A program made the translations under genes and the position numbers. From Clostridia bacterium (GTDB lineage: Bacteria; Bacillota; Clostridia; Peptostreptococcales; Anaerovoracaceae): DNA of 64,000 bases. Positions 1,711 through 38,609 of the stretch are shown one piece after another (positions within the stretch are counted from its first letter, which is position 1; each line of letters starts with the position of its first letter). The notes below the pieces were generated by a model. The model did not search any database. It was not told the origin of the DNA and worked only from the letters and a program-made list of their open reading frames with translations. Location: positions 18,632-82,631 of the forward strand of contig JAKSSK010000002.1 of NCBI GenBank assembly GCA_024403135.1, in the 5' to 3' direction.

Positions 1711-2132
1711 ATGGATGAGAGTTATAGAATTGAAACTGAGATTAATGTAAAAGACTTTTTGGATAAACTACACTATTCCCTAGACAATGGTGGTAAAGTC
1801 GTATTCCAAAAGTACCGCAAAGTAGATTCCCTTCGCGATGAAAAATACACAAATGAGTATACCGTTAACGCGCTGTTTCCTTTTGAAAATCTGGAAATTG
1901 CATTGTCGAAGGAATTAAAAACTTTGACAACTGAAAACTATATTAAGACAGTAAAAGATATTAGATTTTTGGAAAAGTATATAACGATGAAGATGTTTAT
2001 ATTAAGCTTCGCATGGAACTGCTTGATGGCAACGGCATGACTACAGTTTTTATTATGTCATTTCATTTTGCTGAAAAGCCATTCTCGCCAAAAGACTTCC
2101 CATATAAAAAGGAGGCTGGTACTCTATGTTAA
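1711..2132 (+). pseudogene. frameshifted partner gene of MqsA-like antitoxin
   Basis: The first frame stops at 2040 after 109 residues, but the last roughly 20 of these look non-coding. The neighbouring frame continues smoothly from about 1983 as NDEDVYIKLRMELLDGNG and onward to a TAA at 2130-2132, overlapping the next start by 7 bases. Adding one A near 1981-1985 (TATATAACG) would join both into a protein of about 140 residues. This is either a disrupted gene, a sequencing error, or a frameshift site. It sits in the position where a toxin or partner of an MqsA-family antitoxin is expected. The protein family is not recognised. Confidence 0.6.
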
Positions 2133-2686
2133 AAAATATTAAGGTATTAGATGAATCTACTATGCAATGCATCGCTTGTATGCAGACCCATAAGGTTCAG
2201 AGAATTGAGGGCCTGGATTGTACAACATATCTAGGAAAGAAAATTGAATATCCATGTGAATGCTATTACTGTGAAAATGAGGATACATATTTCGAAGATA
2301 GCAAGCAGCTTAACAAAAACTCACTAAGTTTGAAAGACAATTATCGTCTTTCCGTCGGTCTATATTCTTCAAAGGATATTATCAATCTTAGAAAGAAGTA
2401 CGATATAACTCAGCAGGATTTATGTAAGGTTTTAGGCTGGGGTGAAAAGACTATCAATAGATATGAAAACTGTGCAGTGCAAGATAAAGCACATGACCAC
2501 ATCTTAAAGAAATTAGATAAAGATCCCGAATGGTTTATGGACCTACTTAATGCTGGATCTAGCCAGATTAAAGAAGAAAGTTTCATAAAATCATACGATG
2601 CTGCAACTAGAGAATTTGTAAAAGAAAAAGATTCTTATAAGGCAAAGGCAGATAAGGCCGAAGAATTAGAGAAAACATTAAAATAG
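2126..2686 (+). CDS. MqsA/YgiT-type zinc-finger HTH antitoxin
   Basis: 186 residues. The N-terminal zinc module has Cys pairs at C15/C18 and C46/C49 (plus C32 and C44). A Cro/C1-type helix-turn-helix at about residues 85-125 (ITQQDLCKVLGWGEKTINRYE) follows. The lysine/glutamate-rich C-terminal tail is probably helical. This is the layout of MqsA-family antitoxins, which bind a toxin through the zinc domain and repress their own promoter. A perfect dyad operator lies just upstream of the cassette. The upstream partner is frameshifted here, so the unit may be an antitoxin remnant. The ribosome site is AAGGAGG, about 9 bases before the ATG. Confidence 0.75.
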   Translation: MLKNIKVLDESTMQCIACMQTHKVQRIEGLDCTTYLGKKIEYPCECYYCENEDTYFEDSKQLNKNSLSLKDNYRLSVGLYSSKDIINLRKKYDITQQDLCKVLGWGEKTINRYENCAVQDKAHDHILKKLDKDPEWFMDLLNAGSSQIKEESFIKSYDAATREFVKEKDSYKAKADKAEELEKTLK

Positions 2687-4853: not shown

Positions 4854-7151
4854 ATGAGGAAGATAATATTAATATTTTTAACTTTTGTCCTTTCAGCTAC
4901 CATAGCCTTTGCGGTGGAACCTACTGCTGGCTTTACCACCGACTACAGCAAGGACGGAAAGTTTTACCATAATGAGATGTTCGATAATGCCATAGTGGTG
5001 CAAGGGGTTGACCTTTCCACTTGGCAAAACCAGATATCCGTTTCAACCTTTAAAAAGATGAAGGCCCAAGGGGTGGACTTCGTAATTCTTAGGCTTGGCT
5101 ACACAGGCTCAGGAAACTTCAAGGCACAGCTAGATGACTGCTTTGAAGTGAACTACGCCAACGCCAAAGAGGCTGGCATGGAGGTAGGCGTTTACTACTA
5201 CTCCCTAGCTACAATGAAGATGAAGCCAGAGCATCCAAACGATCCTAGAAAGCAGCAGAGCGCTCAGGAAGAAGCTCAGTTCGTGCTAGAGCACATAAAG
5301 GATAAGGATATTACTTATCCAATATTCCTAGACGTGGAAGATCCAAACCACATGGCAAGCCGCTCAAAGGTACAACTAGCCAATATCTGCAACACCTTCT
5401 GCAGCATCATCAAGGAAGCTAATGAGGAGTACGTTCCAGGTGTCTACGCTTCACTATCCTGGTTTAACAACAAGATTGGAGATATTGATCCAAGCTACGT
5501 TAAGTGGGTAGCCCAGTACAACTACAGATGTCAGTACGAAGGCGAGTACATCATGTGGCAGTACGGCTCCACAGGAAAGGTTGAGGGCTTTGAAAAGAGG
5601 CTAGACGTAAACTACAGATATATTGACGATAGCGTTTCAAGTGGTAACTACTCCCTTTCAAAGGCAGACGTTACCTTAAGCTACGAAGAGACAAACTACT
5701 CCGGTTCCCAGAAGAAGCCAGAGGTTACAGTAAGGCTTAAGGGAAAGGCCCTTACACCTGAGACAGACTACCACCTGGCATACTACACAAATGTAAAAGC
5801 AGGAACAGCCTACGCCGTTATCACGGGTAAGGGCAAATACACAGATACAAAGATCACACCGTTTGTAATCAACCCGACCCCGCTAGATGGATACGAGATC
5901 AGGGACATTGCAGACGTAACATATTCTGGAAAGTCAAAGGTTCCTACCGTCAAGGTTCACAAGATTGGTAAGGAGACAAACATTGCATCTTCCAACTACA
6001 AGGTTAGCTACAAGAACAATGTAAACGCTGGAACTGCAACCGTTACCGTAAAGGGTAAGGGAAACTATACAGGAACATTAGAAAAAACATTTAAGATAAA
6101 GAAGCTTGCGCCTACCATCACGGCAAGCGATGCTACAAAGAGAGGAAGCATCACATTCAGCCTAAAGGCCCAGACAAACTCGGATGGAAAGCTAAAGTAT
6201 GCTTCAAGCGATGAAACCGTGGCAACAGTTTCAGAGGATGGCAAGGTTACCACAAAGGGATTTGGCTCATGCCAGATAACCATCACCTCACCTTCAACAA
6301 AGAACTGCAAGAAGGCTTCAGTAGATGTTACCGTTACAGTAACAGGCATAGTAAACGGCCTAGAAGCTACAAATATTAAGGACACATCTTGCACTCTAAG
6401 CTGGGATAAGTTAAAGATGGCAAAGAAGTACAGCGTGTATAGATATAACCCTGAGACGGGAAAATACAAACTTCTAAAGACCACTACAGCTACAAGTTAT
6501 ACAATGGAAGACCTTACTATGAATACCCAGTACAAGGTATATATCAAGGCCAAGGATGAAAAAGGTAGCTACGGCAAGAAGTGCGAGACCCTGCTACTAA
6601 CCACCCTTCTTCCAACCATTAAGAACTTCAAGGCTACAGAGATAGTAGCTGATGGAGCTACTCTAACATGGAAGAAAGTAGCTGGAGTTAGCCAGTACCA
6701 GGTACTAAAACTAAATCCAAAGACAAAGCTTTACGCAAACTACAAGAAGGTTAAGACAAATTCACTTCAGGTTAGCGGACTAGAACCTAACACCCAATAC
6801 TCATTTAAGGTACGCTGCCTAGCAGATGATGTTAAGGGACCACTAACCAAGCTTACATTCACCACAGGCCAGATAAAGCCAGTGATAAAGCAAGTTAAGG
6901 TTGTTGATGGAATTCTTCAAGTTGAAATTGAGGATGGAAACATCAAAGACTTCGAGATAATGTTTGCAGATAACGAAAAGTTTACAGCATCCGTAAAGAA
7001 GGTTGTAAAGGCTAAGAACAACAAGATAAGCATCGATGAACCTGAATGGGATGTAACATACATCAAGGTTAGAAGCTTTGTAAAAGGCGAAGATGGTGCC
7101 GTATACAGCAAGTGGAGTAAAGTCAAAAAATACGAGAAGCCCTTAGAATAG
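4854..7151 (+). CDS. secreted GH25 lysozyme with Ig-like and FN3 repeats
   Basis: 765 residues. A signal peptide (about residues 1-20, ending IAFA) is followed by a glycoside hydrolase family 25 domain (about 45-265). That domain shows the QGVDLSTWQ start with catalytic Asp53, the IFLDVED acidic motif, and the final RLDVNYRYID. Then come two MBG-like repeats (about 275-345 and 350-420, each ending GKGxYTxT), a bacterial Ig-like 2 domain (YASSDETVATVSEDGKVTT), and two to three fibronectin type III-like modules. It should cleave peptidoglycan between MurNAc and GlcNAc outside the cell. There is no LPxTG or choline-binding motif, so retention may be through the Ig/FN3 part. It is co-transcribed with the PPC gene. 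Confidence 0.92.
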   Translation: MRKIILIFLTFVLSATIAFAVEPTAGFTTDYSKDGKFYHNEMFDNAIVVQGVDLSTWQNQISVSTFKKMKAQGVDFVILRLGYTGSGNFKAQLDDCFEVNYANAKEAGMEVGVYYYSLATMKMKPEHPNDPRKQQSAQEEAQFVLEHIKDKDITYPIFLDVEDPNHMASRSKVQLANICNTFCSIIKEANEEYVPGVYASLSWFNNKIGDIDPSYVKWVAQYNYRCQYEGEYIMWQYGSTGKVEGFEKRLDVNYRYIDDSVSSGNYSLSKADVTLSYEETNYSGSQKKPEVTVRLKGKALTPETDYHLAYYTNVKAGTAYAVITGKGKYTDTKITPFVINPTPLDGYEIRDIADVTYSGKSKVPTVKVHKIGKETNIASSNYKVSYKNNVNAGTATVTVKGKGNYTGTLEKTFKIKKLAPTITASDATKRGSITFSLKAQTNSDGKLKYASSDETVATVSEDGKVTTKGFGSCQITITSPSTKNCKKASVDVTVTVTGIVNGLEATNIKDTSCTLSWDKLKMAKKYSVYRYNPETGKYKLLKTTTATSYTMEDLTMNTQYKVYIKAKDEKGSYGKKCETLLLTTLLPTIKNFKATEIVADGATLTWKKVAGVSQYQVLKLNPKTKLYANYKKVKTNSLQVSGLEPNTQYSFKVRCLADDVKGPLTKLTFTTGQIKPVIKQVKVVDGILQVEIEDGNIKDFEIMFADNEKFTASVKKVVKAKNNKISIDEPEWDVTYIKVRSFVKGEDGAVYSKWSKVKKYEKPLE

Positions 7152-10868: not shown

Positions 10869-11405
10869 CTAAAAGCTTGGTGGAGTGCTAACCCATATTA
10901 TTTCAGCCCCTGTCTTTGAGAAGATGTAGTGGGACTTGTCTGGTGTGTAGTAGAATGAATCACCGGCCTTAGCCTGGTACTTTTCCTTACCTAATACGAT
11001 GGTAATCTTTCCCTTAAGAACGTATCCGAATTCTTCCCCCTCGTGAGGATTGTCTGGATAGGTCCTTCCACCTGCTTCAAGCTTTAGGCGAATAGGCTCC
11101 ATCATGTTCTTTTGAGCGTTAGGAATAATCCACTCTATTGTATTTTGGCTTTCTGCATCTACCTTTTCGAAGTAGTCCTGGTCTGTAAAGACTATCTGCT
11201 CGTGCTCCTTCTCCTCTAGGAAGAATTCGCTTACGGTAGTTCCTAGGCACTGCAGTATGTCTTCAAGGGTTGAAATTGATGGAGATGTCAGGTCTCTCTC
11301 AAGCTGTGAAATGAAGCCCTTGGAAAGCTCTGATCTATCCGCCAGTTCCTCCTGTGTTAAGCCATTTAAAGTTCTAAGTTCCTTTATCTTACTTCCAATA
11401 TCCAT
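10869..11405 (-). CDS. XRE-cupin transcriptional regulator of the pot operon (PuuR-like)
   Basis: 178 residues. An N-terminal Cro/C1 helix-turn-helix (about 6-60, [23 protein letters not shown]) is followed by a cupin domain (about 105-175, [19 protein letters not shown]). Regulators of this build often sense polyamines and repress uptake or breakdown genes; PuuR of Escherichia coli is the model. First gene of the pot operon. A perfect 9-bp dyad between its promoter and start (11432-11454) is the probable autorepression site. Sensing of polyamine is inferred from context. Confidence 0.88.
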
Positions 11406-11431
11406 ATGTGAATTAATCCTTTCTTAAACTT

Positions 11432-11454
11432 CTTGTTTAGTATTTCTAAACAAG
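11432..11454. promoter_or_regulatory. operator of the pot operon
   Basis: Perfect inverted repeat CTTGTTTAG-TATTT-CTAAACAAG (9-bp arms, 5-base spacer). It lies just downstream of the expected transcription start and about 27 bases before the regulator start codon, a typical repressor site. Confidence 0.75.
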
Positions 11455-11465
11455 GGACGTGTTTA

Positions 11466-11494
11466 ATTATACTAAATTTTATGTTTACAGTCAA
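11466..11494 (-). promoter_or_regulatory. promoter of the pot operon
   Basis: On the minus strand: TTGACT (11489-11494), 17-base spacer, TATAAT (11466-11471). Confidence 0.85.
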
Positions 11495-11723
11495 TATGTT
11501 TGCGTTGCAAGATTTTGTGGTGTGTTTCATAAAAACGTGTGCTTCAAATCTACGTTTTGACGGGTATTTTCTGAGGGGTTTTCAAAAACTCGTCTGGATT
11601 TAGAAAATATGCCATATTTTTAGTCTTCCAAACGCGTTTTTGAAAATGTGGAAAGGTAAACACGTAGAAACGTTGGATTAGAACATAGGAATTTTCAATT
11701 CAGCCGTAGAAACCTTGCGGCGC
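11495..11723. other. gene-free stretch with a long inverted repeat
   Basis: No convincing reading frame is present. Arms TTTTCAAAAAC (11579-11589) and GTTTTTGAAAA (11636-11646) are perfectly complementary and enclose a second hairpin, AAAATATG / CATATTTT (11604-11620). The rest is AT-rich with repeated CGTTT and ACGT words. It may be an untranslated RNA or an old insertion remnant; nothing more can be supported. Confidence 0.4.
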
Positions 11724-11753
11724 AATAAAAAATGTAGGCCAAATGGCCTACAT
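11724..11753 (-). terminator. terminator of the cobalamin ECF operon
   Basis: ATGTAGGCC / GGCCTACAT stem with a 4-base loop and a T-rich tail (TTTTTTATT) on the minus strand. It overlaps the stop codon of the S-component gene. Confidence 0.88.
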
Positions 11754-12677
11754 ATATATTCCGTATTTAATTTTAACCCTCTCTATCTTCCTTATCATTG
11801 GATTTCCCACTATGAACATACATATTGAGGCTAATACCGCGTGGGTTAAGTCGTATGGGAAGCCTGAGATGTACAGGGCTCTAATGGTGTTAAAGCTTAG
11901 GTCATAGCCGCCAGGTATTCCGCTGGAATAGATCAGCATTGCGAAGTTCATAATTCCCCCATAGATGATCATGGTTCCTAAGAAGCAGAACACCGTAAGG
12001 GTTATGTCGTCGCATGGCAGCCTCTTCCTCTGGAGAAGGGCTCCAAGAAGTATGCCTATAGCTCCTGCCAGGTATACCCTCCAGCCTAGGAAGGTTCCAT
12101 CATCTCCTGGCACGAATAGGTATGTTATATATGCTAACGCTTCCACGAAGATTACCGCTACGATTGGGCCAAACACTGCCTTGAAGGTTCTAGACTTTGC
12201 CATCTCTGTCTTGGTCTTTACTCCTAGCTTTAGCATGTCCTTGCTTATCTTGTTAAAGCACATTCCTGCTAAGAAGCCCAGCAGACCCCAGCAAAACATC
12301 TGCCACGGTGTCCAAGGTCCCTGCCCTTCGTAGAAGTTTAAGATGAACCTGGAGATTGAGCCTACCAGGAATCCCGCTTCAGGTCCTAGGGCTACCCCTG
12401 ACACTATTACCAGTGCTGTACCTATCTGTATACCTCCAAACATCCTCATCAGAAGATGGCTGACTATGGTGATTGCAGATATGGTAGCTATAATTACTAT
12501 CTCTCTAGCCTTTGGCTTTCTCTTTTCAAATACCATGAAGAAAGGAACCATGGCGTAGATAACTACAAGAAGGCTCACTATCATGTACTTGGCGTTGTCA
12601 ATAAACAACACGCTTGCAGCAAGAGTAAGCGGCATTAGCACCCATACTATTAAGTTTGAAGCTAACTTTCTACTCAT
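11748..12677 (-). CDS. ECF transporter S component, probable cobalamin-specific (CbrT-like)
   Basis: 309 residues with about eight hydrophobic segments. The pattern of a small-residue-rich core (GTALVIVSGVALGPEAGFLVGSISRFILNFYEGQGPW) is that of ECF S components that bind vitamins in the membrane. It is the last gene of an operon with EcfT, a double ATPase and a cobalamin riboswitch, so B12 or a corrinoid is the expected cargo, as for CbrT of Lactobacillus. The ATG at 12677 follows GGAGG by 6 bases and overlaps the ATPase stop by 8 bases; an in-frame TTG sits just upstream. Specificity is inferred from the riboswitch, not from binding residues. Confidence 0.82.
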   Translation of the reverse strand: MSRKLASNLIVWVLMPLTLAASVLFIDNAKYMIVSLLVVIYAMVPFFMVFEKRKPKAREIVIIATISAITIVSHLLMRMFGGIQIGTALVIVSGVALGPEAGFLVGSISRFILNFYEGQGPWTPWQMFCWGLLGFLAGMCFNKISKDMLKLGVKTKTEMAKSRTFKAVFGPIVAVIFVEALAYITYLFVPGDDGTFLGWRVYLAGAIGILLGALLQRKRLPCDDITLTVFCFLGTMIIYGGIMNFAMLIYSSGIPGGYDLSFNTIRALYISGFPYDLTHAVLASICMFIVGNPMIRKIERVKIKYGIYM

Positions 12678-14358
12678 CAAGTGCCTCCACTACATCATCC
12701 CATGTTACAGCGCTTGGAAGCCACTTTCTAGCCATTCTGTTGGCGCTAGTCGTATAGAAGCTGTTTCCTGCGAAGAATGGCTTAGGTCTTCCAATAGATG
12801 CTACCTCTCCATCGAAGAACATGGCACATCTAGTTGCGTATTCTGCGCAGAACTCAATATCGTGGCTGACCATGAAGATGGTCACATCCCTATCCTGTAA
12901 CTTTTTCAATATTTCAGCTAAGGTTATCTTGAAGAATGGATCAAGTCCCTTGGTTGGCTCGTCAAGTAAAAGGACCTTCGGGTTAAGAAGGAGAATCTTG
13001 CCTAGGGCAAGTCTCTGCTGCTCACCTCCAGATAGATCGTAAGGGTGGCTTTCCCTTAGGTGCTCTATCTCCATAAGCTTCAGCATCTCGTTAACCTTTT
13101 CTTCCTTTTCAGCGTCTGTATAATCCAAGTAGTAGATGGCTTCTAAAAGCTCATCCTCTACGCATATTTCTGTAAAAAGTGCCTGTGGATTCTGAGGTAC
13201 CATAGCAATATGTCCCTTGAAAAGCTCCTGCATATTGCCTTTCTTTACCTGTATTCCATCCACAGTGATTGTGCCTTCCTGCGGGGTGCAAATACCTGCA
13301 ACTGTCTTCAAGGTTGTGCTCTTTCCTGCGCCGTTACCTCCAAGCAGGCAGAATAGCTCCCCTCTCATAACCTTTAGGTTAAGGCCTCTAAGGATTGGTT
13401 CCTTACCTCTTTCGTAGGTGAACCAAACTTCCTTCATATCTAAAGCTACCTCGCCCTTTACCTCTTCCTCTTCAAAGGTTACAGGGCCAAGTCCTCTATC
13501 TCCTAGGATTTCCTCTAGCCACAGTCTACCGTCTCTAATGGTAAGTGGCGCGTACTCTTCATTACCCTGCATGTATGGCTTCACTCCCTTTTTCCTTGAA
13601 GCTGAATATATCTTCATAACTGCAGGTAGTCCGTAGAACATTGGGTGCGGACCCTTAGCTAGGAAGTTACCGATGGTCCAAGGGCTATCGAAGGCAATTA
13701 CCTTTCCCTCATCCATTACCATAACCTTGTCTGCCATGGTGAAAAGTTCTTCCAGTCTGTGCTCAGAGATGATTACTGTTACTCCAAGCTCCCTGTTTAT
13801 TCTGTATACCACCTTTAAGAACTCTGAGGCTGCTATTGGGTCTAACTGGCTTGTAGGCTCATCTAGGATAAGCACCTTTGGCTGCATTGCCATTACTGAA
13901 GCCAGGTTAAGAAGCTGCTTTTGGCCTCCTGAAAGCTGTGATACATCCTTTCTAAACCATGTCTGGATATCGAAGAAGTTGGCCATCTCTGCCACCCTCC
14001 TCTTAATTGCCTGGTTGTCTAATCCAAGGGATTCTAGGCCAAAGGCTAGTTCGTGCCATACCTTGTCTGTAACCAGCTGGTTATCTGGATTTTGCTGTAC
14101 GAAACCGATCTGGGCTGTGCTAAGTGCATCGTCTAAATCCTCAACCTTTGTTCCTTCATACAGCACCTCACCTTCCCTATCTCCGAAAGGTGCTAGGTTC
14201 TTTTTTAACTGGCGAAGAAGAGTACTCTTTCCGCATCCGGACTTTCCGCAGATAACGACGAAGTCTGATTCTTCCACCACAAAATTGACCCCATCTAGGG
14301 CCTTCTTCTTACCGCCTGGGTATGTGAAGCTTAAATCTTTGACATCAATCGTTGCCAT
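12670..14358 (-). CDS. fused double ATPase of ECF transporter (EcfA-EcfA')
   Basis: 562 residues carrying two complete ABC ATPase domains. Domain 1 (about 1-235) has CGKSGCGKST, LSGGQKQLL and LILDEPTSQLD. Domain 2 (about 310-545) has GGNGAGKST, LSGGEQQRLALG and LLLDEPTKGLD. It fuses the two ATPase subunits that are usually separate EcfA1 and EcfA2 proteins. It energises the T/S complex on the cytoplasmic side. The start at 14358 follows AGGAG and gives the expected MATIDVKDLSFTYPGG N-terminus. It overlaps ecfT by 28 bases. Confidence 0.93.
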   Translation of the reverse strand: MATIDVKDLSFTYPGGKKKALDGVNFVVEESDFVVICGKSGCGKSTLLRQLKKNLAPFGDREGEVLYEGTKVEDLDDALSTAQIGFVQQNPDNQLVTDKVWHELAFGLESLGLDNQAIKRRVAEMANFFDIQTWFRKDVSQLSGGQKQLLNLASVMAMQPKVLILDEPTSQLDPIAASEFLKVVYRINRELGVTVIISEHRLEELFTMADKVMVMDEGKVIAFDSPWTIGNFLAKGPHPMFYGLPAVMKIYSASRKKGVKPYMQGNEEYAPLTIRDGRLWLEEILGDRGLGPVTFEEEEVKGEVALDMKEVWFTYERGKEPILRGLNLKVMRGELFCLLGGNGAGKSTTLKTVAGICTPQEGTITVDGIQVKKGNMQELFKGHIAMVPQNPQALFTEICVEDELLEAIYYLDYTDAEKEEKVNEMLKLMEIEHLRESHPYDLSGGEQQRLALGKILLLNPKVLLLDEPTKGLDPFFKITLAEILKKLQDRDVTIFMVSHDIEFCAEYATRCAMFFDGEVASIGRPKPFFAGNSFYTTSANRMARKWLPSAVTWDDVVEALDE

Positions 14359-15236
14359 CTCTTCTCTCCTAAAATATCTAAAACTATTGGTATTAACATT
14401 AGTGCGCTGTAGCACATAAGGGTTAGAAGCCTGATCATGCTAAACTCTGGCATGGTCACTTTAGGATAGTACTCAATGTTTGTATATCCTAGTACGCATC
14501 CTACGCTTGCCAAAACTCCAAAGAAGCATATTGCAGCTAGCAGCGTCTTGTCCTCTGCTGAAAGCTTGAACAGGTGAAAGCTGGTTCTATGTGGCAGGCC
14601 GTATCCCCTTGCTTCCATTGAATCCGATGTCTCTATGGATGCTTCTAGGGACCAGGAAATTAGAATTGAAATCTCCTTAGTTAGCTGCCTTATCCTGTGC
14701 ATCAGCTTACCTTCATTGCTCCTTCCCATACACTGCTGGCCCATCCTGATCTCCTTGAATCTTTCCTTTAGAAGTGGAATGAATCTGAAGATCATGGATA
14801 GTGTAAGCCCTAGCACTGGGGCTATCTTACCGAACATATATATTAGCTTATCTGAGCTCATTATCTCATTGAACGAAACAAACCACACGATAATCCCCGT
14901 AAACAAAGCCGCTGTCGCTATACCAAATACAAAGGCCTCTAGGGTTATCCTGTTGTTGTGTATAAAGAAAAGCACTGTCTGTCCGTTGTGGGTAAAGAAT
15001 GTGTTTACCACCACTGTAAACAGCAGCACTGGCAGTGCGAAGAACAGGTTTGTCCTATGCACCTTTCTACCTTTCAGTAAAGCAGAATAAGCCCAGGCAA
15101 AAATTAATGCCAGGGCTAAAATGTATGGATCCATGGAGAACATTAGGACCCCAATTACAAATCCATAGAATATTAAGTTGACCAGTGGGTGAGCCTGCTT
15201 AAATCTTGAGTCCTCACCTATGCCATCTTTAAACAT
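14331..15236 (-). CDS. ecfT: ECF transporter transmembrane T component
   Basis: 301 residues with about six membrane segments and the family coupling helices: RFIPLLKERFKEIRMGQQ and DSMEARGYGL (the Ala-Arg-Gly motif that contacts the ATPases). It couples ATP hydrolysis to toppling of the S component. The start follows the upstream stop directly (TAAATG), so translation is coupled. It is the first transporter gene after the two extracytoplasmic proteins of the operon. Confidence 0.93.
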   Translation of the reverse strand: MFKDGIGEDSRFKQAHPLVNLIFYGFVIGVLMFSMDPYILALALIFAWAYSALLKGRKVHRTNLFFALPVLLFTVVVNTFFTHNGQTVLFFIHNNRITLEAFVFGIATAALFTGIIVWFVSFNEIMSSDKLIYMFGKIAPVLGLTLSMIFRFIPLLKERFKEIRMGQQCMGRSNEGKLMHRIRQLTKEISILISWSLEASIETSDSMEARGYGLPHRTSFHLFKLSAEDKTLLAAICFFGVLASVGCVLGYTNIEYYPKVTMPEFSMIRLLTLMCYSALMLIPIVLDILGEKRWQRLMSKI

Positions 15237-16301
15237 TTACTTTACCTTTTTAACTGCGCTTACCTTTCCATATACCTTCTTGCCATCTACTAGTACATAT
15301 GGCTTTACCTTGGCATACAGGGCTTTGGATTTAGTAGATATGGTAAGCTTTTTTGCGCTTACGCTCTTCTTACCTTTAGTGAATTTCTTATCCTTTGCTA
15401 GCATCAGGGTGTATCCAGATGCCTTTACTCTCTTTCCGTCTACCCTTACGTAGGTTGTTCTAACCTTGCAGGTTATCTTGCCGTCCTTCTTTGTTACTGA
15501 CTTGATCTTTGCCTTTTCTGCTCCACCTTCTAGGTACATTCCTAGTGCGTAGAATCCTTGGACTGTAGCAAGGCCATCAATATTTCCATCTTTAATGTGC
15601 TTAAAGCCTACTGGTGTGTAAAACTCCATCAGCTGGTTTATTGCTTTATCTTCCTTAACTCCCCACTTCTTAAATGCGAAGGCTACCTGGGCTGCGCTCT
15701 CTGCGTTTACTGCCCCATATGATGAAAAACTCTTGCAATCCTTAAGTAGATCAAGTGCTCTATCGCATACCTTCTTTACCTTTTCGTCATTTCTAAATGG
15801 GTAAAGGGCGCATAGAACCATGGCTGTCATGTCCACGTCGTACTTTTCGGCACTACTTGAGAAGTTAAAGCCGCCGTCTTTCTTCTCAATACCTAGAAGG
15901 TAATCTACGTACCTATCCTCTACCTTATCCTTTACTCCGTAAAAGTCTAGGGCCATAAGTGCCCACACAGGTCCGTTCATTCCCTGGCTTTTGATGAAGT
16001 CGTAGTCTAAAAGCTTATCTACATACTTCGATGCATCCTGGCCTACTGCGCTAAGGGCAAGGACTGTCCTTGCGTAGTCTGTAGGGTTCTTTACGGATAT
16101 GTTTGCCTTAAAGCTTTTGATGGTGCTAGCCTTAACGTCGTATCCGCCTAGGCCCATTCCGTAGATTATCCAGTCTCCTGCGTTATCTTCATACTTCTTG
16201 GCAATCTTTGTATATGCGTCACTCTTGGTTATTGCAAAGCTTGTAAGGGTCATTGAAAACACTAAGCTTACTGCAACTAAGATGGATATTATCTTCTTCA
16301 T
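15237..16301 (-). CDS. secreted alpha/alpha-toroid protein, transcobalamin N-domain-like
   Basis: 354 residues. A signal peptide (about 1-28) is followed by a helical repeat region (about 30-265) of the terpene-cyclase/prenyltransferase toroid type. It has repeated pairs of helices and short motifs such as LLGIEKKDGGFNFSS, MTAMVLCALYPF and ATVQGFYALGMYL. A lysine-rich beta C-domain (about 268-354) ends it. The alpha6/alpha6 barrel is also the N-terminal domain of animal intrinsic factor and transcobalamin. The preceding gene encodes the other half of such proteins and the operon has a cobalamin riboswitch, so a role in extracellular corrinoid binding is inferred. ATG at 16301 follows GGGGAGG and overlaps the upstream stop by one base (TAATG). 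Confidence 0.75.
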   Translation of the reverse strand: MKKIISILVAVSLVFSMTLTSFAITKSDAYTKIAKKYEDNAGDWIIYGMGLGGYDVKASTIKSFKANISVKNPTDYARTVLALSAVGQDASKYVDKLLDYDFIKSQGMNGPVWALMALDFYGVKDKVEDRYVDYLLGIEKKDGGFNFSSSAEKYDVDMTAMVLCALYPFRNDEKVKKVCDRALDLLKDCKSFSSYGAVNAESAAQVAFAFKKWGVKEDKAINQLMEFYTPVGFKHIKDGNIDGLATVQGFYALGMYLEGGAEKAKIKSVTKKDGKITCKVRTTYVRVDGKRVKASGYTLMLAKDKKFTKGKKSVSAKKLTISTKSKALYAKVKPYVLVDGKKVYGKVSAVKKVK

Positions 16302-16912
16302 TACATTTCCTCCCCAGTACATGTATACTTCCAGACTATTACGTCTCCGTCATGTAGATAGTACGATGAGCAGCCGTAATTTGGAGACCAGCCGTTTACC
16401 GTATATATCCAGCCGGACATGTCTCCGTAGTCGAACTCGTAGATATATTGTATGCCCTCTACGTAGTAGGACTCGAACATCTGCTGGTATCTGTACTCTA
16501 TCTGGATATCGTTATTCCTACACAGTGTATTAAGTGCATCAAACACCGTGTTTTCAGTGGTGCCTGTGTAGGTTGTTGGGGCAAGTATTACTTCGCCTTC
16601 CTTACCTGGCACTTCATCACATCTAATTTCAAGGGTAACGGTAACCTTCTGTGCTTCCTTTGGCTTTAGCTTCACGTTACCTTCGTTTGATGCTGTAGGA
16701 TCCTTTGAATTATCTATCTTAACCTCTTTAGGGGTTACTTCCTCTTTTTCTACCTTCACCTTTTCCTGTTTAGGTGCTTCGTTTGGAAGCTTAGCGTCCT
16801 TTGGCTCTATGGTTGAAAGACTAGCAGCTACCATTCCTAAAACTGCAAGGCCAACCACAACAAGGGCTATCTTCCTCTTCCTATTTGTCTTTAGTTTTTC
16901 CTTGATTCCCAT
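16301..16912 (-). CDS. membrane-anchored DUF4430 (transcobalamin C-domain-like) protein
   Basis: 203 residues. A basic N-terminus and one hydrophobic anchor (about 13-32) are followed by a Lys/Glu/Pro-rich linker (about 35-85) and a DUF4430 domain (about 90-203). The domain shows NTVFDALNTLC, YYVEGIQYIYEFD, SGWIYTVNG and the closing DGDVIVWKYT. DUF4430 is the small beta domain that caps B12 in intrinsic factor and transcobalamin. Its place directly behind a cobalamin riboswitch supports corrinoid capture at the outer face of the membrane. ATG at 16912 directly follows the terminator T run and has no Shine-Dalgarno site, which is odd. The longer frame upstream would lie inside the riboswitch and is rejected. 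Confidence 0.85.
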   Translation of the reverse strand: MGIKEKLKTNRKRKIALVVVGLAVLGMVAASLSTIEPKDAKLPNEAPKQEKVKVEKEEVTPKEVKIDNSKDPTASNEGNVKLKPKEAQKVTVTLEIRCDEVPGKEGEVILAPTTYTGTTENTVFDALNTLCRNNDIQIEYRYQQMFESYYVEGIQYIYEFDYGDMSGWIYTVNGWSPNYGCSSYYLHDGDVIVWKYTCTGEEM

Positions 16913-16948
16913 AAAAAAATTAAAAGGACTGTGGATAAACCACAGTCC
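16913..16948 (-). terminator. riboswitch expression-platform terminator
   Basis: On the minus strand, GGACTGTGG / CCACAGTCC stem with a 5-base loop, then TTTTAATTTTTTT ending at the ATG. The 5' arm GGACT can instead pair with AGTCC inside the aptamer, a simple basis for switching. Confidence 0.85.
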
Positions 16949-17002
16949 GTATTTACTGATCTTGAGATATAACGTTTCATCGACGTAACTCATCTAATAT
17001 AT

Positions 17003-17092
17003 GCATGTATCTGGCTACAGGACTAACCCTTCACAGTGGCGGGACCGCAGAGGATTTTCACCTCTTTCCATCACATATATCTAGTATTTAAT
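17003..17092 (-). ncRNA. cobalamin riboswitch aptamer 1
   Basis: On the minus strand the order of conserved blocks fits the cobalamin riboswitch: GAGGTGAAAATCCTC, GCGGTCCCGCCACTGTGA, then TAGCCAGATACATGC. The ends can pair (ATATATG with CATATAT). It lies between a good promoter and a terminator in front of the DUF4430-toroid-ECF operon. Binding of B12 should favour termination. Confidence 0.9.
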
Positions 17093-17101
17093 TACTCGAT
17101 T

Positions 17102-17130
17102 ATTTTATCACAAAACCCCTAATTGTGCAA
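17102..17130 (-). promoter_or_regulatory. promoter of the cobalamin ECF operon
   Basis: On the minus strand: TTGCAC (17125-17130), 17-base spacer, TAAAAT (17102-17107) with an upstream TG. Confidence 0.75.
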
Positions 17131-17134
17131 ATAC

Positions 17135-17686
17135 CTATTTATTTGCTCCTACTAGCTTTCTAACTAGATCAAATGCACTTCCTAGGTACTCACCTAAAGT
17201 CTTATCTGAGTATTTAAACTTGATTGCATATCTAAGTTCTCCACCTGAGTAATCTGAGTTGTATGGGTTTTGAACTTGAATGATATCTGGCTTACCATCA
17301 TTTTTTCCATAAATAACCTTGCCTGGTTGTGAATAGTGATCCTCAAACACTGCATCTACAGCCACTCTAAGTCTCTTCACGCCTTTACCATCGTATTCAA
17401 AGTTTCCTGCAAGATAGTTACCTTGATCATCATAGTTATATGCGATTTGGCCCTTGGCAAATCTTAGTGTAACGTACTTTGTATTCTTTGGTACTGTTAC
17501 AACGTAAAGTGGCACCTTTACATTTTTTTCTGCCATAAAATCGTAGTATGTGTATCCATGGAAGTCCATAGTTACACCTACTGCTGGTGTTACTGTGCAT
17601 GGCATGATGCATGCTGATGCTGCAAGTGGCATTGCTGAGAAAGCAACTACAAGTGCAAGCACTAATCCAATAATTCTTTTCTTCAT
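17135..17686 (-). CDS. secreted protein of unknown family under a cobalamin riboswitch
   Basis: 183 residues. A clear signal peptide (about 1-25, ending AASA) is followed by a short CIMPC motif at the start of the mature chain. About 150 residues rich in Tyr, Asp, Gly and beta-like strands follow (VPLYVVTVPKNTKYVTLRF, AYNYDDQGNYLAGNF). The C-terminal helix is GEYLGSAFDLVRKLVG. No family is recognised. Its own leader carries a cobalamin riboswitch, so expression should rise when B12 is scarce. It lies beside the ECF operon with DUF4430 and toroid proteins, so a role in corrinoid scavenging is inferred. AAAGGAG lies 8 bases before the start. Confidence 0.7.
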   Translation of the reverse strand: MKKRIIGLVLALVVAFSAMPLAASACIMPCTVTPAVGVTMDFHGYTYYDFMAEKNVKVPLYVVTVPKNTKYVTLRFAKGQIAYNYDDQGNYLAGNFEYDGKGVKRLRVAVDAVFEDHYSQPGKVIYGKNDGKPDIIQVQNPYNSDYSGGELRYAIKFKYSDKTLGEYLGSAFDLVRKLVGANK

Positions 17687-17751
17687 TTAATTTCTCCTTT
17701 CAATATATATTTTTTTAAAGAATGAAAAGCTGTAATTAAATGAGTCTTCAT

Positions 17752-17776
17752 TAAAAAAGCACCCATTCTGGGTGCT
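17752..17776 (-). terminator. terminator of cobalamin riboswitch 2
   Basis: On the minus strand AGCACCCA / TGGGTGCT with a 3-base loop and T6, between the aptamer and the secreted-protein gene. Confidence 0.88.
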
Positions 17777-17829
17777 ATACTGGTGCAATAAAAAGATCGC
17801 GGTCTCACCTCAGAAGACTTTGTAATGAG

Positions 17830-17965
17830 CTAAACAGGTCTACCGACTTAATCTTTGTAACCTACTAGAGCGCCTTCCCAGTTTCCCAGTGGCATACTGC
17901 TCGTTCGTGGATAACACGGTTGCTGAGACACAGTACTGGAATCTAACCAGCTTCCGAATGTTGTC
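17830..17965 (-). ncRNA. cobalamin riboswitch aptamer 2 (divergent)
   Basis: On the minus strand: GAGCAGTATGCCACTGG, then ACTGGGAAGGCG, then AGTCGGTAGACCTG (17835-17848). These match the GCCACTG, GGGAAGG and AGTCAGGAGACCTG blocks of cobalamin riboswitches in the right order. The 5' part is more divergent than in aptamer 1. A consensus promoter precedes it and a terminator follows it. Together with these, it explains the 331-base gene-free stretch 17687-18017. Confidence 0.8.
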
Positions 17966-17992
17966 TAGCTGAACATATTTAATTACAGTTGA

Positions 17993-18021
17993 AGTATATT
18001 ACCAATTGATAAGTGTGTCAA
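17993..18021 (-). promoter_or_regulatory. promoter of riboswitch 2 transcript
   Basis: On the minus strand: TTGACA (18016-18021), 17-base spacer, TATACT (17993-17998). It overlaps the 3' end of the PBECR4 gene. Confidence 0.88.
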
Positions 18022-18596
18022 GAGAATGATTCTTGAAAATAAATGTCACCTGTCTTATCAATTATGGTTATTTGCCTTACTTTTATTGTCTTTTGTTTCC
18101 GTATATATGCGTTATCTTCTCTAATAAAAAAGGATTCAGCGTAATATTCTCCTTTATCATCTTGCCCTATCGAAAGGTGATAATATAAATCATCGTTGTT
18201 GTAAAATAACATGCACTTTGCTTTCAAAATGGAATTTACCACTTCAGAATTGAAATCTACTATTATATCCGTATAGATCAAAGTTTGAATAATATCATCA
18301 GAAAAGCAGTTATATCTTTCCTTAATGGAGTCAAATTCACAGCTGTTTATTATCTCCTCTTCTGTGATTTTCCCACTTTTTATCCAAGATATTATGTAGC
18401 CACTATTAACCACCTTGTCATTTGGATTATTGAATCGACGTATAATATCTATATCTTTCAACTTATGTAGGCCAATTAAATGTGGGAAATTTCTTCTTTG
18501 CAAAGAAAATTCTACCATATTTCCCGTTTCCAATTCATATCTTACAGTATAGCCACAAATGCTCTCGTAATTTAAATATTTCTCTAATAACCCCAT
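18018..18596 (-). CDS. PBECR4-type nuclease-domain protein
   Basis: 192 residues, no signal peptide. The segment VEFSLQRRNFPHLIGLHKLKDID (about residues 28-50) and the later FNSEVVNSILKAKCMLFYNNDD are hallmarks of the PBECR4 domain. PBECR4 belongs to the phage-barnase-EndoU-colicin E5/D-RelE-like nucleases, seen in phage and polymorphic toxin settings. RNase activity is expected for the superfamily, not shown. AGGGGT lies 5 bases before ATG 18596, and the upstream frame extension is rejected. It sits behind a 160-base structured leader ending in a 10-bp hairpin. No obvious protein antitoxin gene is adjacent. Confidence 0.72.
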   Translation of the reverse strand: MGLLEKYLNYESICGYTVRYELETGNMVEFSLQRRNFPHLIGLHKLKDIDIIRRFNNPNDKVVNSGYIISWIKSGKITEEEIINSCEFDSIKERYNCFSDDIIQTLIYTDIIVDFNSEVVNSILKAKCMLFYNNDDLYYHLSIGQDDKGEYYAESFFIREDNAYIRKQKTIKVRQITIIDKTGDIYFQESFS

Positions 18597-18757
18597 AAAT
18601 ACCCCTAATAAATGTATAGCCCTTGGTTGTACCAAGGGCTAAGTCATTTTCAAAAGTGGTTCTCTTTGCTTCGGAAACTCCTATCCGGGGTAAGTGAACC
18701 AAAACTTACGGAAAAACCTCTGCTTAGGAACCCGGAACATCCTAAGCTTCATCGGTC
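18597..18757 (-). ncRNA. structured leader RNA with two pseudoknots, unassigned
   Basis: Minus-strand RNA between a consensus promoter and the PBECR4 gene. Hairpin A: arms 18740-18746 and 18723-18729. Its loop CCGGG pairs with 18684-18689. Hairpin B: arms 18704-18709 and 18690-18695. Its loop (18696-18700, GAACC on the plus strand) pairs with 18658-18662. A perfect 10-bp hairpin (18618-18627/18631-18640, 3-base loop) follows just before the ribosome site. It could be a riboswitch or a type III-like RNA antitoxin. No known class was recognised. Confidence 0.6.
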
Positions 18758-18818: not shown

Positions 18819-19775
18819 CTAGAATGTTGCAACATCGTCCTCTAGTCCAGGACAAGGTTCAAATGTTTCAATGTGTAGCACAGGTCCATCCTCGCCGTAT
18901 GCTTCGTGCATCTCGTGCTTTACTGTGAACTGCACTATTGCCCAGTCTCCGTGGACTACCTGCTTTATCTTTTCTGGATCCCATACAGCTACAAGTCCTG
19001 CAAACTGAATGTCCTCAACGCAGCAGGTCATAACGTGTCTACCAAGTACCATGCTGTTCTTAGGTAGGCCTCCACCTACTAGTGTTCTGCCCTTAACCTT
19101 TACAGTCTTGCCATCCCACTTTAGAGGCTCCTCATTAATATCCCTATACCAGTAAGCATAGTCTAGGTCCTTAACTTCAACAATATCTGCATTAATATCG
19201 AATGGTAGTGGATCCTCGATATCGTCGAACTCCACGTTGTCCCTTTCGTATTCGTACATGATCTGACTGTTTCTGTTGGCTGTTCTAACCACCTTGTGGA
19301 AAGCCATTTTATCATATAGCTTGCTAAAGCGATTGAACACTACCATCTCAGCGCTCTTCAGTTTATCGAAGACCAGGTTACGCATGTTCTGGTTGTATGT
19401 AAGGAAAGTTGGCGAGTACGCAAAGAACATCTCCTGGTAAGTAATCCAGTGAGGTGGCATATTGCCATACATTGTGTCAAGAAGCCACATGCCGTTCCAC
19501 TCAACAACTATTCTATCGGGGTGATACTTGTTTTCAAGTCTTCCCAGGTGAAGCATGTTGAAGTCGGATTCTTCCTCGATCACCTCGATGTATACCTTGC
19601 CTTCAGCAAACTTCTCAGGTTCGTATTCAACCTCACCTTCCTCGCAGCATAAAAGCAGCGTAGTCTGGTCCTTTGAGTTGAACTCATCGCTTTCCAATGA
19701 TTCCTGGATAAATGAAGTTTTACCAGATTCTAAGAAGCCAGTAAAAAGATATACCGGCATTTCTTTTTTCATCAT
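18819..19775 (-). CDS. CobW/COG0523-like GTPase lacking the metal-binding CxCC motif
   Basis: 318 residues. The P-loop GFLESGKTSF near residues 12-21 and the CobW-like start (MPVYLFTGFLESGKT) place it in the COG0523 group. It lacks the CxCC metal motif and has an unusual FNRFSKL where NKxD would be. The C-terminal part (about 200-318) has the CobW C-terminal domain style (WDGKTVKVKGRTLVGGG). It probably works with the His-rich CobW protein encoded 9 bases upstream, as paired metallochaperone-like GTPases do in some Clostridia. The metal and client are unknown. Confidence 0.75.
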   Translation of the reverse strand: MMKKEMPVYLFTGFLESGKTSFIQESLESDEFNSKDQTTLLLCCEEGEVEYEPEKFAEGKVYIEVIEEESDFNMLHLGRLENKYHPDRIVVEWNGMWLLDTMYGNMPPHWITYQEMFFAYSPTFLTYNQNMRNLVFDKLKSAEMVVFNRFSKLYDKMAFHKVVRTANRNSQIMYEYERDNVEFDDIEDPLPFDINADIVEVKDLDYAYWYRDINEEPLKWDGKTVKVKGRTLVGGGLPKNSMVLGRHVMTCCVEDIQFAGLVAVWDPEKIKQVVHGDWAIVQFTVKHEMHEAYGEDGPVLHIETFEPCPGLEDDVATF

Positions 19776-19784
19776 ATCTATCTC

Positions 19785-20867
19785 CTAAATTCCAAATAAC
19801 TGTTTAATATTGTCTTCCTTGATTTCAGAACCAATTACGCATAGTCTTCCGATGATGCCTGCTGATCCTGTTCTAACATCTGGTTCACCAGGAACATAGT
19901 CGAAGTGAATCCACTTGCCGTCTTCACCTTCAACGATACCCTTAGCTCTTAATATGATGCCGTATTCATCCTCGTGGGATAGCTCATTAAGAGCATGTTC
20001 AATCTGCTGGATTGTGAACTTGTGTGTAGTTTCTTCACCAACTGATGCGAATATTTCATCTGCATGATGGTGATGATGGTGGTGATGGCACTCACAATCT
20101 GGATCATCGCATTCGTGATCGTGGTCATGGTGATGATGACATTCACATTCTTCATCGTGGTCATGATGGTGATGGTGATGTTCGTGACATTCACACTCTT
20201 CATCGTGGTCATGGTGATGATGGTGATGTTCATGCTCTAGATGCTCTAGCTCCATAGCAAGAGTATCCTTGTTTTCCATAGCCTCTAGAATCTTCTTACC
20301 GTCAAGTTCATCCCAGTCGGTTGCGATGATTGTAGCATGATCGTTGTGCTCCTTTAGAACCTTAACTGTCTCATCCAGCTTGTCCTGGCTAAGTCCCTTA
20401 GTGTGGCTTAAGATGATTGAGCTAGCGTGCTCAACCTGGTTATTGAAGAATTCGCCGAAGTTCTTCATGTACATCTTAGCCTTCTTAGCGTCTACTACTG
20501 TAGTGAAGCCGTTTAAAGCTACGTCTTCCATTTCAAGGTTTTCGACAGCAGTGATGATGTCGCTAAGCTTACCTACACCTGAAGGTTCAATTAGGATTCT
20601 CTCAGGATGGAATTCTTCCATTACCTTTTCAAGTGCTCTGCCGAAATCTCCAACTAGGCTGCAGCAGATACATCCTTGATTCATCTCATTGATCTTGATG
20701 CCTGCATCCTGAAGAAAACCTCCATCTATTCCAATTTCGCCAAATTCGTTTTCAATTAAAACGATTTGCTCTCCCTTGTATGCTTCCTCAATTAACTTCT
20801 TGATTAAAGTTGTCTTTCCTGCTCCTAAGAAGCCTGAAAAAATATCGATTTTTGTCATTTTCGTCAT
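19785..20867 (-). CDS. His-rich CobW-family (COG0523) metallochaperone GTPase
   Basis: 360 residues. Walker A GFLGAGKTT (12-20), IENEFGEIGIDG switch (38-49), and the GCICC metal motif with Cys66, Cys68 and Cys69. Residues about 208-268 are an extreme His/Asp/Glu/Cys-rich insert with a near-repeated HHHHHHDHDEECEC unit. The CobW C-terminal domain follows. COG0523 proteins deliver Zn, Co or related metals to client enzymes. The usual NKxD guanine motif reads SHTK (154-157), so nucleotide choice may differ. It is coded in one run with a second CobW-like GTPase and two unknown genes. It lies 3 kb from B12 import genes, so cobalt is possible but unproven. Confidence 0.88.
   Translation of the reverse strand: MTKMTKIDIFSGFLGAGKTTLIKKLIEEAYKGEQIVLIENEFGEIGIDGGFLQDAGIKINEMNQGCICCSLVGDFGRALEKVMEEFHPERILIEPSGVGKLSDIITAVENLEMEDVALNGFTTVVDAKKAKMYMKNFGEFFNNQVEHASSIILSHTKGLSQDKLDETVKVLKEHNDHATIIATDWDELDGKKILEAMENKDTLAMELEHLEHEHHHHHHDHDEECECHEHHHHHHDHDEECECHHHHDHDHECDDPDCECHHHHHHHHADEIFASVGEETTHKFTIQQIEHALNELSHEDEYGIILRAKGIVEGEDGKWIHFDYVPGEPDVRTGSAGIIGRLCVIGSEIKEDNIKQLFGI
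20072..20236. repeat. tandem repeat coding for His-rich metal-binding insert
   Basis: CATGGTGATGATGGTGATG-type units recur, alternating with CATTCACATTCTTCATCGTGG blocks. The two clearest copies lie near 20130-20175 and 20180-20235. They code for the repeated His6-Asp-His-Asp-Glu-Glu-Cys-Glu-Cys unit, and repeat number could vary by slippage. Confidence 0.8.
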
Positions 20868-38145: not shown

Positions 38146-38153
38146 ATTTCTCC

Positions 38154-38609
38154 TTAGATTGCAAGTGCAGCCCCATAAGTTACAAATGCTACAATTGCTG
38201 CCGCAATTACTACTCCAAGTGCTATGGCTGGCATAGCTCTCTTTATCTGCATATCCATCATAGCTGCAACCAGTCCTCCCGTCCAAGCTCCTGTGCCTGG
38301 AAGTGGAATGGCAACTAAAATTACAAGTCCCCAGAACTCGTACTTCATTACCTGTGCCTTCTTGGACTCAGCCTTAGCCTCTAGCTTTTCTACAAGCCTA
38401 TCTAGCTTTCCGCTCTTTTCCCTCATCCACTTAAATATCTTTCTTATGAAGATTATGATAAATGGAATTGGAAGAAGGTTTCCCAGTATGGAAACTATGA
38501 CAGCTGTAGGAAAATCTAGGCCGCTAGCAACCCCAATAGGCAGAGCTCCTCTAAGCTCTATTACAGGTACCATGGCTATGAAAAATGTATATGCAATCTT
38601 TGAAAACAT
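38154..38609 (-). CDS. small multi-drug export family protein (COG2426)
   Basis: 151 residues with about four membrane segments. The family features are the N-terminal VPVIELRGALPIG and the re-entrant IPLPGTGAWTGGLVAAM. A charged loop (about 60-90) lies between. COG2426 proteins are called small multi-drug exporters, but evidence for that role is thin. It is followed at 8 bases by the secreted lysozyme-like gene. Confidence 0.87.
   Translation of the reverse strand: MFSKIAYTFFIAMVPVIELRGALPIGVASGLDFPTAVIVSILGNLLPIPFIIIFIRKIFKWMREKSGKLDRLVEKLEAKAESKKAQVMKYEFWGLVILVAIPLPGTGAWTGGLVAAMMDMQIKRAMPAIALGVVIAAAIVAFVTYGAALAI

Follow-up and report, generated by a model that had tools for sequence, protein, structure and literature searches.

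A 64-kb stretch of DNA from a Clostridia bacterium of the Anaerovoracaceae (assembly GCA_024403135.1, contig JAKSSK010000002.1; the whole stretch is referred to here as the window) carries an operon that probably encodes a transcobalamin-like system for capturing corrinoids, whose domains are encoded by separate genes and which would supply an energy-coupling factor (ECF) importer of the ECF-CbrT type. This assignment is supported by the repeated fusion of the toroid and DUF4430 domains among relatives, by the match of one such fusion to the transcobalamin fold, by the kinship of the S component with CbrT, by the cobalamin riboswitches, and by the presence of B12 enzymes in a genome without detected FecCD or CbiD. 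Corrinoid uptake by the operon is well supported and, at the level of predicted folds and of fusions, so is capture of the transcobalamin type. That the two capture proteins jointly clamp a corrinoid and hand it over to the S component we infer, as we do the identity of the ligand, the direction of riboswitch control and the role of a further secreted protein of 183 amino acids (P183).

In the mechanism that we propose the host would be an anaerobe, seemingly unable to make B12, that scavenges vitamin B12 or a close corrinoid. When coenzyme B12 is scarce, both cobalamin riboswitches would let transcription pass their terminators; the unit of riboswitch 1 would then yield the small secreted P183, and that of riboswitch 2 the membrane-held DUF4430 beta-grasp protein, the secreted toroid and a complete ECF transporter. 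At the cell surface, toroid and DUF4430 protein would most likely enclose a single corrinoid, which would then be passed to the CbrT-like S component and imported by the ATP-driven EcfT/EcfAA' module.

Organisation of the locus

The features of the locus, all on the minus strand, are listed from 5' to 3' in window coordinates.

18021-17993, minus strand: promoter-like TTGACA-17-TATACT
17816..17997, minus strand: cobalamin riboswitch 1 (RF00174, 45.9 bits, cut-off 31.5), 5' of the P183 gene
17758..17776, minus strand: intrinsic terminator-like hairpin between riboswitch 1 and the P183 gene, 8 pairs followed by a T run
17135..17686, minus strand: P183, predicted secreted 183-amino-acid protein, a stand-alone copy of a domain found elsewhere in the same reading frame as toroid and/or DUF4430
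16960..17093, minus strand: adenosylcobalamin riboswitch 2, leader of the capture/transport operon (RF01482, 66.2 bits, cut-off 50; whole model, 1-149)
16926..16948, minus strand: intrinsic terminator-like hairpin directly 3' of riboswitch 2, 9-pair stem with a T run
16301..16912, minus strand: predicted membrane-anchored DUF4430 protein, a beta-grasp of the transcobalamin C-terminal type (PF14478, 68.3 bits, cut-off 23.8)
15237..16301, minus strand: predicted secreted alpha/alpha-toroid protein with a C-terminal beta domain (AlphaFold2 model, Foldseek)
14331..15236, minus strand: EcfT, CbiQ-like transmembrane coupling protein (PF02361, 46.8 bits, cut-off 25)
12670..14358, minus strand: fused EcfA-EcfA' with two ATP-binding cassette (ABC) ATPase domains (TIGR04520, 368 bits, two stretches)
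11748..12680, minus strand: S component, probably CbrT-related, with extra N-terminal hydrophobic segment(s) (PF07155, 47.6 bits)
11732..11753, minus strand: intrinsic terminator-like hairpin at the operon end, 9 pairs followed by a T run

The six parts named in the initial annotation, running from a riboswitch through the DUF4430 and toroid proteins to EcfT, the fused EcfA-EcfA' and the S component, are all present on the minus strand and in the order that it gave. Its count of a single riboswitch has to be amended to two, since the riboswitch at 17816-17997 and the P183 gene, both outside the interval to which it had confined the system, had been missed. Each of the two riboswitches has a terminator-like hairpin 3' of it, and 15 terminator-like sites were found in 11400-18200 against 4.9 expected (standard deviation 2.5). 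Promoter-like sites in the same interval are at chance level (11 observed, 12.9 expected), and the promoter at 18021-17993 is therefore only suggestive.

The open reading frame (ORF) of the DUF4430 protein (16301-16993) opens at 16993, inside the aptamer of riboswitch 2, and the gene likely starts at the ATG at 16912, just past the terminator. For the toroid the ORF (15237-16322) opens at 16322, and the ATG at 16301, preceded by GGGGAGG, is the likely start, which would overlap the DUF4430 stop codon by one base. The two ABC domains of EcfA-EcfA' lie in one ORF of 581 amino acids (12670-14415) opening at 14415, with a putative start at 14358 suggested by relatives such as locus L101.

The toroid and DUF4430 proteins

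The DUF4430 protein has one N-terminal hydrophobic helix, while the toroid protein and P183 each begin with a single hydrophobic segment resembling a signal peptide; judged from these sequence features, the proposal that the DUF4430 half is tethered and the toroid half secreted holds. The initial annotation had made its reading depend on a toroid fold and a DUF4430 match. The latter is provided by PF14478; the toroid is below the Pfam cut-off by sequence (PF00432, 16.2 bits, cut-off 26.5) and was recognised from an AlphaFold2 model (333 amino acids, 47 sequences) with a mean predicted local distance difference test score (pLDDT) of 86.5. The model, confident over the blocks of residues 21-230 (pLDDT 80-98), presents a mostly helical toroid followed by a beta domain and matches solved alpha/alpha toroids.

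In some relatives the toroid and DUF4430 share one ORF. At five loci (L135, L155, L159, L161 and L179) the toroid precedes DUF4430, which is the order of transcobalamin, and EcfT is the next gene detected; in the last four of these hydrophobic stretches can be seen by eye between the two domains. A fragment of such a fused protein from Bacillus ndiopicus (L163:5482-6789, 436 amino acids) was modelled from an alignment of 98 rows, eight of them with both domains, and gave a pLDDT of 87 and a predicted template modelling (pTM) score of 0.73, with toroid blocks at 92-99, a linker falling to 35 and DUF4430 blocks at 52-91. The 15 best fold matches of this model in the PDB are to transcobalamin, haptocorrin or intrinsic factor only (E 1.1e-10 to 6.1e-7), the first other match being a squalene-hopene cyclase (1.8e-5). 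The natural fusions in the same order beside EcfT, together with this fold search, support the earlier suggestion that the two window proteins correspond to the two halves of transcobalamin.

The joined or separate state of the domains was followed on a quick tree of 58 toroids, 20 scored as fused (any DUF4430 in the same ORF, very large ORFs included) and 38 as split (ORFs cut by contig ends included). Starred branches account for at least five changes of state, and parsimony counts 12 in all where shuffled labels give about 17; the state is therefore partly clustered but not of one origin. Very large proteins of about 2000-3100 amino acids with toroid and DUF4430 also adjoin operons of this kind (L069:8166-17480, minus strand; L073:4881-13196, plus strand; L163:1810-7944, plus strand). 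The one at L163 contains three SLH stretches, and a cobalamin riboswitch lies at the start of its gene. These proteins are possibly wall-bound corrinoid catchers.

The ECF transporter

EcfT, the fused EcfA-EcfA' and the S component are all found by Pfam/NCBIfam-type models in the expected order. As a single sequence the window S component gave no PDB match up to E 10, and no CbiM-type Pfam match was found for it. A profile built on 20 S components of operons of this type reaches 6fnp_A at 5.7e-16, followed by RibU 3p5n (7.7e-4), 4hzu (2.4e-3) and FolT 5d3m (0.15). From its length (182 amino acids) and name ('Membrane protein') 6fnp_A would be the CbrT chain of 6FNP, the ECF-CbrT vitamin B12 transporter of Lactobacillus delbrueckii, which imports cobalamin and cobinamide (PMC5997447; this and the other papers cited were available as excerpts). 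By this profile comparison the S component is predicted to be homologous to CbrT, in agreement with the importer of B12 type claimed at the outset.

Requirement of the host for B12

The genome to which the window belongs (1.16 Mb, 95.8% complete) encodes four proteins with a B12-binding domain. These are a MetH-type protein (382 bits, scanned as a 618-amino-acid piece cut by the locus and below the full-length cut-off), the D-ornithine 4,5-aminomutase OraE (1167 bits) and lysine 5,6-aminomutase beta (374 bits), both over cut-off, and a radical SAM protein. Neither FecCD, the BtuC permease family, nor CbiD, the sole marker enzyme of B12 synthesis searched, has a match in this genome; CbiD is specific to the anaerobic route of B12 synthesis. 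Two CbiQ-family EcfT genes are present, one of them in the window, and the only toroid-protein match, the only DUF4430 and both RF00174 matches of the genome lie inside the window.

Recurrence of the gene order in relatives

The survey of gene order with cobalamin riboswitches that the initial annotation had called for shows the arrangement to recur. Among 61 related genomes, including that of the window, a match to the toroid protein occurs in 30, DUF4430 in 42, many with several matches, and a cobalamin riboswitch in 50. All but one of the 30 genomes with a toroid match also have DUF4430, as do 13 of the 31 others. The sole toroid-match genome without it, G049, matches residues 4-63 only, and in G005 and G006 the match covers the C-terminal beta domain only.

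A DUF4430 profile scan of GTDB contigs matched at least 597 stretches, 580 of them encoding a relative, and the best 80 were kept. At 60 of these the DUF4430 ORF lies no more than 1.5 kb from an EcfT ORF on the same strand, a proportion biased upwards because 18 of the 20 scan-query rows came from loci with ECF genes (the exceptions being L077 and L095). The toroid is a separate adjacent ORF at 26 of the 60, shares an ORF with DUF4430 at six (in reversed domain order in L128), lies elsewhere in the locus at nine and is missing from the available DNA at 19. A second set of 40 loci from 36 genomes (L061-L100) was chosen for holding a toroid or DUF4430 match; 24 have DUF4430 within 1.5 kb of a same-strand EcfT, with the toroid adjacent at eight, fused at two, elsewhere at eight and absent from the available DNA at six. 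The EcfT, EcfA and S profiles used in the locus scans were built from hits in L061-L100 themselves, and the gene-order counts rest on ORFs of at least 70 amino acids and vary with contig ends. Two loci (L080 and L085) gave no hit by single-sequence scan; with the profiles all 40 give at least one.

Of 24 relative loci scanned, 19 have a cobalamin riboswitch at some position (8/8, 5/7 and 6/9 by batch), or 18 of 23 distinct ones, as L062 and L105 are the same contig; the 24 were a non-random choice from the 120 loci L061-L180, and the scan had no random-region control. An RNA-family scan of a further locus, L189, found none.

The records of relatives include Lachnospiraceae, Oscillospiraceae, Ruminococcus bromii, Blautia parvula, Lacticaseibacillus sharpeae and Bacillus ndiopicus. 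Many of the best 80 DUF4430 records come from rumen, gut or faeces, and the system thus bears on the competition of gut bacteria for B12. Contigs labelled archaeon, Actinomycetes or Coriobacteriales in metagenome bins (L162, L130, L135 and L180) carry the same type of operon, possibly through mis-binning or transfer. In genome G001, of the same genus as the host, one region (L061:7062-10295, plus strand) holds two cobalamin riboswitches, an unassigned membrane protein of 186 amino acids, a DUF4430 protein with, by eye, a Cys at a lipobox-like position, and a toroid.

P183 and a possible third piece

P183 has only weak Pfam hits, none of them reaching the cut-off, and no match in NCBIfam, and no relative was present among the ORFs first fetched. 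A single-sequence search of the 61 genomes found one relative besides its own, in G016 (8.5e-11), where profiles recognise P183, a toroid (27.1 bits) and a DUF4430 domain (24.2 bits) in succession in an ORF of 797 amino acids that by eye ends in SLH-like repeats. A two-row P183 profile matches 12 of 296 genomes of the family at 19 places, its own and the training row included. Seven of the 15 P183 ORFs outside the window have toroid and/or DUF4430 in the same ORF (L189, L210, L212, L214, L215, L216 and L217), four adjoin a toroid/DUF4430 gene or an ECF operon (L211, L219, the second L210 ORF, and L221 with a weak DUF4430), and four have neither in the DNA read (L213, L218, L220 and L222). Conserved motifs in the alignment resemble LYTVTVPAGT, YNY and QVQTPYD.

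As the G016 ORF holds P183, toroid and DUF4430, what are three genes in the window have their counterparts in three domains of a single protein elsewhere. Most genomes with toroid and DUF4430 lack P183, which is therefore not a required part. P183 is possibly a surface immunoglobulin-like module, as guessed from the pattern of its sequence, or a third contact to the ligand, and with its domain a new family under B12 regulation would await characterisation. We advance only tentatively the bolder view that the window encodes a transcobalamin in three separately made pieces, namely a tethered beta-grasp, a free toroid and P183 under its own riboswitch, which would assemble round a corrinoid at the cell surface and dock on the ECF transporter. 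Binding of the vitamin in ECF importers is generally ascribed to the S component alone; the three-piece view, if true, would provide an importer of this class that has an extracellular complex dedicated to capture.

Opposing evidence and alternative readings

A number of results weigh against a capture system of the transcobalamin type. In sequence searches transcobalamin is not listed up to E 10 for the toroid profile (A1), the DUF4430 profile (A2) or a mixed profile (A6, in which the DUF4430-only rows were trimmed, about 13-17 residues of each such row having sat in toroid columns in the earlier A4); terpene cyclases are what the toroid and mixed profiles find instead, while nothing significant is matched by that of DUF4430. 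The comparison with transcobalamin by which the initial annotation proposed to check itself is hence negative by sequence profiles and positive by the fold search of the fused relative. In that search the L163 model aligns with the 15 transcobalamin-type structures at TM scores of 0.50-0.62 and root-mean-square deviations of 6.8-9.9 Å, values that, for a relative rather than the window pair, show both domains to match while leaving their mutual placing unconfirmed. The model of the window toroid itself fits farnesyltransferases, terpene cyclases, complement and transcobalamin about equally, ranking transcobalamin 8ixt (1.3e-3) 23rd and intrinsic factor 3kq4 (1.4e-3) 25th; because this Foldseek list does not discriminate, the ligand is unreadable from it, although the predicted toroid fold itself appears sound. 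The window toroid is also a long branch (1.88) of odd composition in the toroid tree.

Further opposing points come from the relatives. Single-sequence search finds no toroid in 13 of the 42 DUF4430 genomes, although at least one of them, G044, does show a toroid, and the ECF-adjacent DUF4430 loci with no toroid in the available DNA (19 of 60 and 6 of 24) often lie where a contig ends nearby. Riboswitches in relatives are not always just upstream, that of L173 being downstream of the operon, and G001, despite its DUF4430 and toroid, has no EcfT or EcfA within the 19 kb read and may rely on an ECF module shared with other S components. Finally, the gene absences in the host are not final at 95.8% completeness.

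An alternative to which we assign a rather low probability is that the operon does take up corrinoid but that toroid and DUF4430 bind independently, or bind different things, with no two-sided clamp; DUF4430 might, for example, hold the corrinoid while the toroid attaches to the cell wall or to some other protein of the surface. Such an arrangement would agree with the 25 of 84 ECF-adjacent DUF4430 loci that have no toroid in the available DNA, contig ends often being near, with the several DUF4430 matches of many genomes, and with the additional C-terminal beta domain of the window toroid. It accords less well with the repeated joining and separation of the same two domains, with the transcobalamin order and the fold match over both domains in the fused relative, with the near restriction of toroid matches to DUF4430 genomes (29 of 30), and with the one-base overlap of stop and start, from the likely start codons, between the two window genes.

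Similarly unlikely is a ligand other than complete B12 from the same pathway, such as cobinamide, pseudo-B12, alpha-ribazole or cobalt, a proposal that overlaps with corrinoid capture wherever the compound is itself a corrinoid. B12 riboswitches also precede some cobalt transporters (PMC2667541), EcfT belongs to the CbiQ family, and CbrT itself imports cobinamide besides cobalamin (PMC5997447). The S component, however, is CbrT-like and without a CbiM-type Pfam match, and a genome that shows no CbiD could hardly turn cobalt by itself into B12. That the toroid is an enzyme of the prenyltransferase or terpene-cyclase type, or a wall-modifying protein merely located in the operon, we consider very improbable: its profile finds a squalene-hopene cyclase as best PDB match (1.9e-19), and terpene cyclases and prenyltransferase subunits lead the Foldseek list of the window model, with a diterpene cyclase on top (1.6e-4), but the window toroid lacks DXDD, the class II cyclase motif and the one catalytic motif searched for, which occurs, seemingly by chance, in one of 58 toroids; the protein is also probably secreted to where prenyl substrates are unlikely, and it is repeatedly fused to DUF4430.

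Relation to known systems

The idea of corrinoid capture by such proteins is not new, its core having been published by Burroughs et al. (2007; PMC1796856), who predicted bacterial B12 scavengers with SLBB and toroid domains in CbiO/CbiQ operons and proposed that animals acquired transcobalamin from bacteria. Their proteins share with those described here the transcobalamin-type beta-grasp, the toroid, a secreted or surface-bound location and operons with a CbiO-like ATPase and a CbiQ-like protein. B12 scavenging was proposed for hosts usually without B12 synthesis, and here no CbiD was found in a genome of 95.8% completeness. The excerpts of that account describe fusions of toroid and SLBB as well as SLBB domains that stand alone, whereas the toroid as its own gene is a feature of the window; the CbrT S component, the riboswitches and the P183 domain are likewise features here that those excerpts do not name. 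What the present analysis adds is the separate genes, the link to CbrT, the paired riboswitches and the P183 domain.

In vertebrate TCN proteins the DUF4430 domain is found at the C-terminus (PMC4350170). Animal transcobalamin, intrinsic factor and haptocorrin share the toroid and the beta-grasp and provide the best PDB matches of the fused bacterial relative. They are, however, one chain with no ECF partner, whereas the window has two genes, one for a predicted membrane-anchored product, with no sequence similarity to them detected by the profiles. Toroid and beta-grasp in one chain, the mark of transcobalamin, are seen in relatives such as L155 and L161 and not in the window.

The CbrT-type S component, EcfT and EcfA/EcfA' are shared with ECF-CbrT of Lactobacillus delbrueckii (PMC5997447) and with the CbrUVT set (PMC6593275). 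The Lactobacillus CbrT cluster reads nrdJ-cbrS-cbrT-pduO and uses a shared general ECF module, with no extracellular binder described in the excerpts; unlike ECF-CbrT, the window importer has EcfA-EcfA' as one chain, its own EcfT and its own capture proteins. An annotation from Lacticaseibacillus rhamnosus, 'additional lipoprotein component of putative cobalamin ECF transporter' (PMC9963975), likewise links an extra lipoprotein to a cobalamin ECF transporter, the excerpt describing no toroid partner or mechanism. Searches of the open-access PMC literature listed no paper that we recognised as dealing with the toroid as a separate gene, with a riboswitch-driven three-gene set, with P183 or with experiments on these bacterial proteins. 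If a capture system feeding a CbrT-type importer is indeed what the window encodes, the animal B12 carriers would gain working bacterial counterparts, the proposed transfer of transcobalamin from bacteria to animals (PMC1796856) would become testable with defined proteins, and an ECF vitamin importer would be seen to use extracellular binding proteins.

Neighbouring genes

Directly upstream of riboswitch 1 lies a gene for a PBECR4-domain protein (18018-18635, minus strand; 51.5 bits, cut-off 27), followed further upstream by two adjacent CobW-family GTPases (18819-20867, minus strand). One of these is very His-rich (CobW, 127 bits), and the other has a DUF1980_C match (57.5 bits) and a TIGR03943-like C-terminus (66 bits, below the model cut-off); both are perhaps metal chaperones. 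Elsewhere in the window are a protein with a phage tail lysozyme domain (35905-38286, minus strand; 88.4 bits), a GH25 protein with fn3 repeats (4854-7148, plus strand; 78.2 and 63.6 bits) and a protein with an MqsA-antitoxin-like domain (2126-2683, plus strand; 34.7 bits, cut-off 30).

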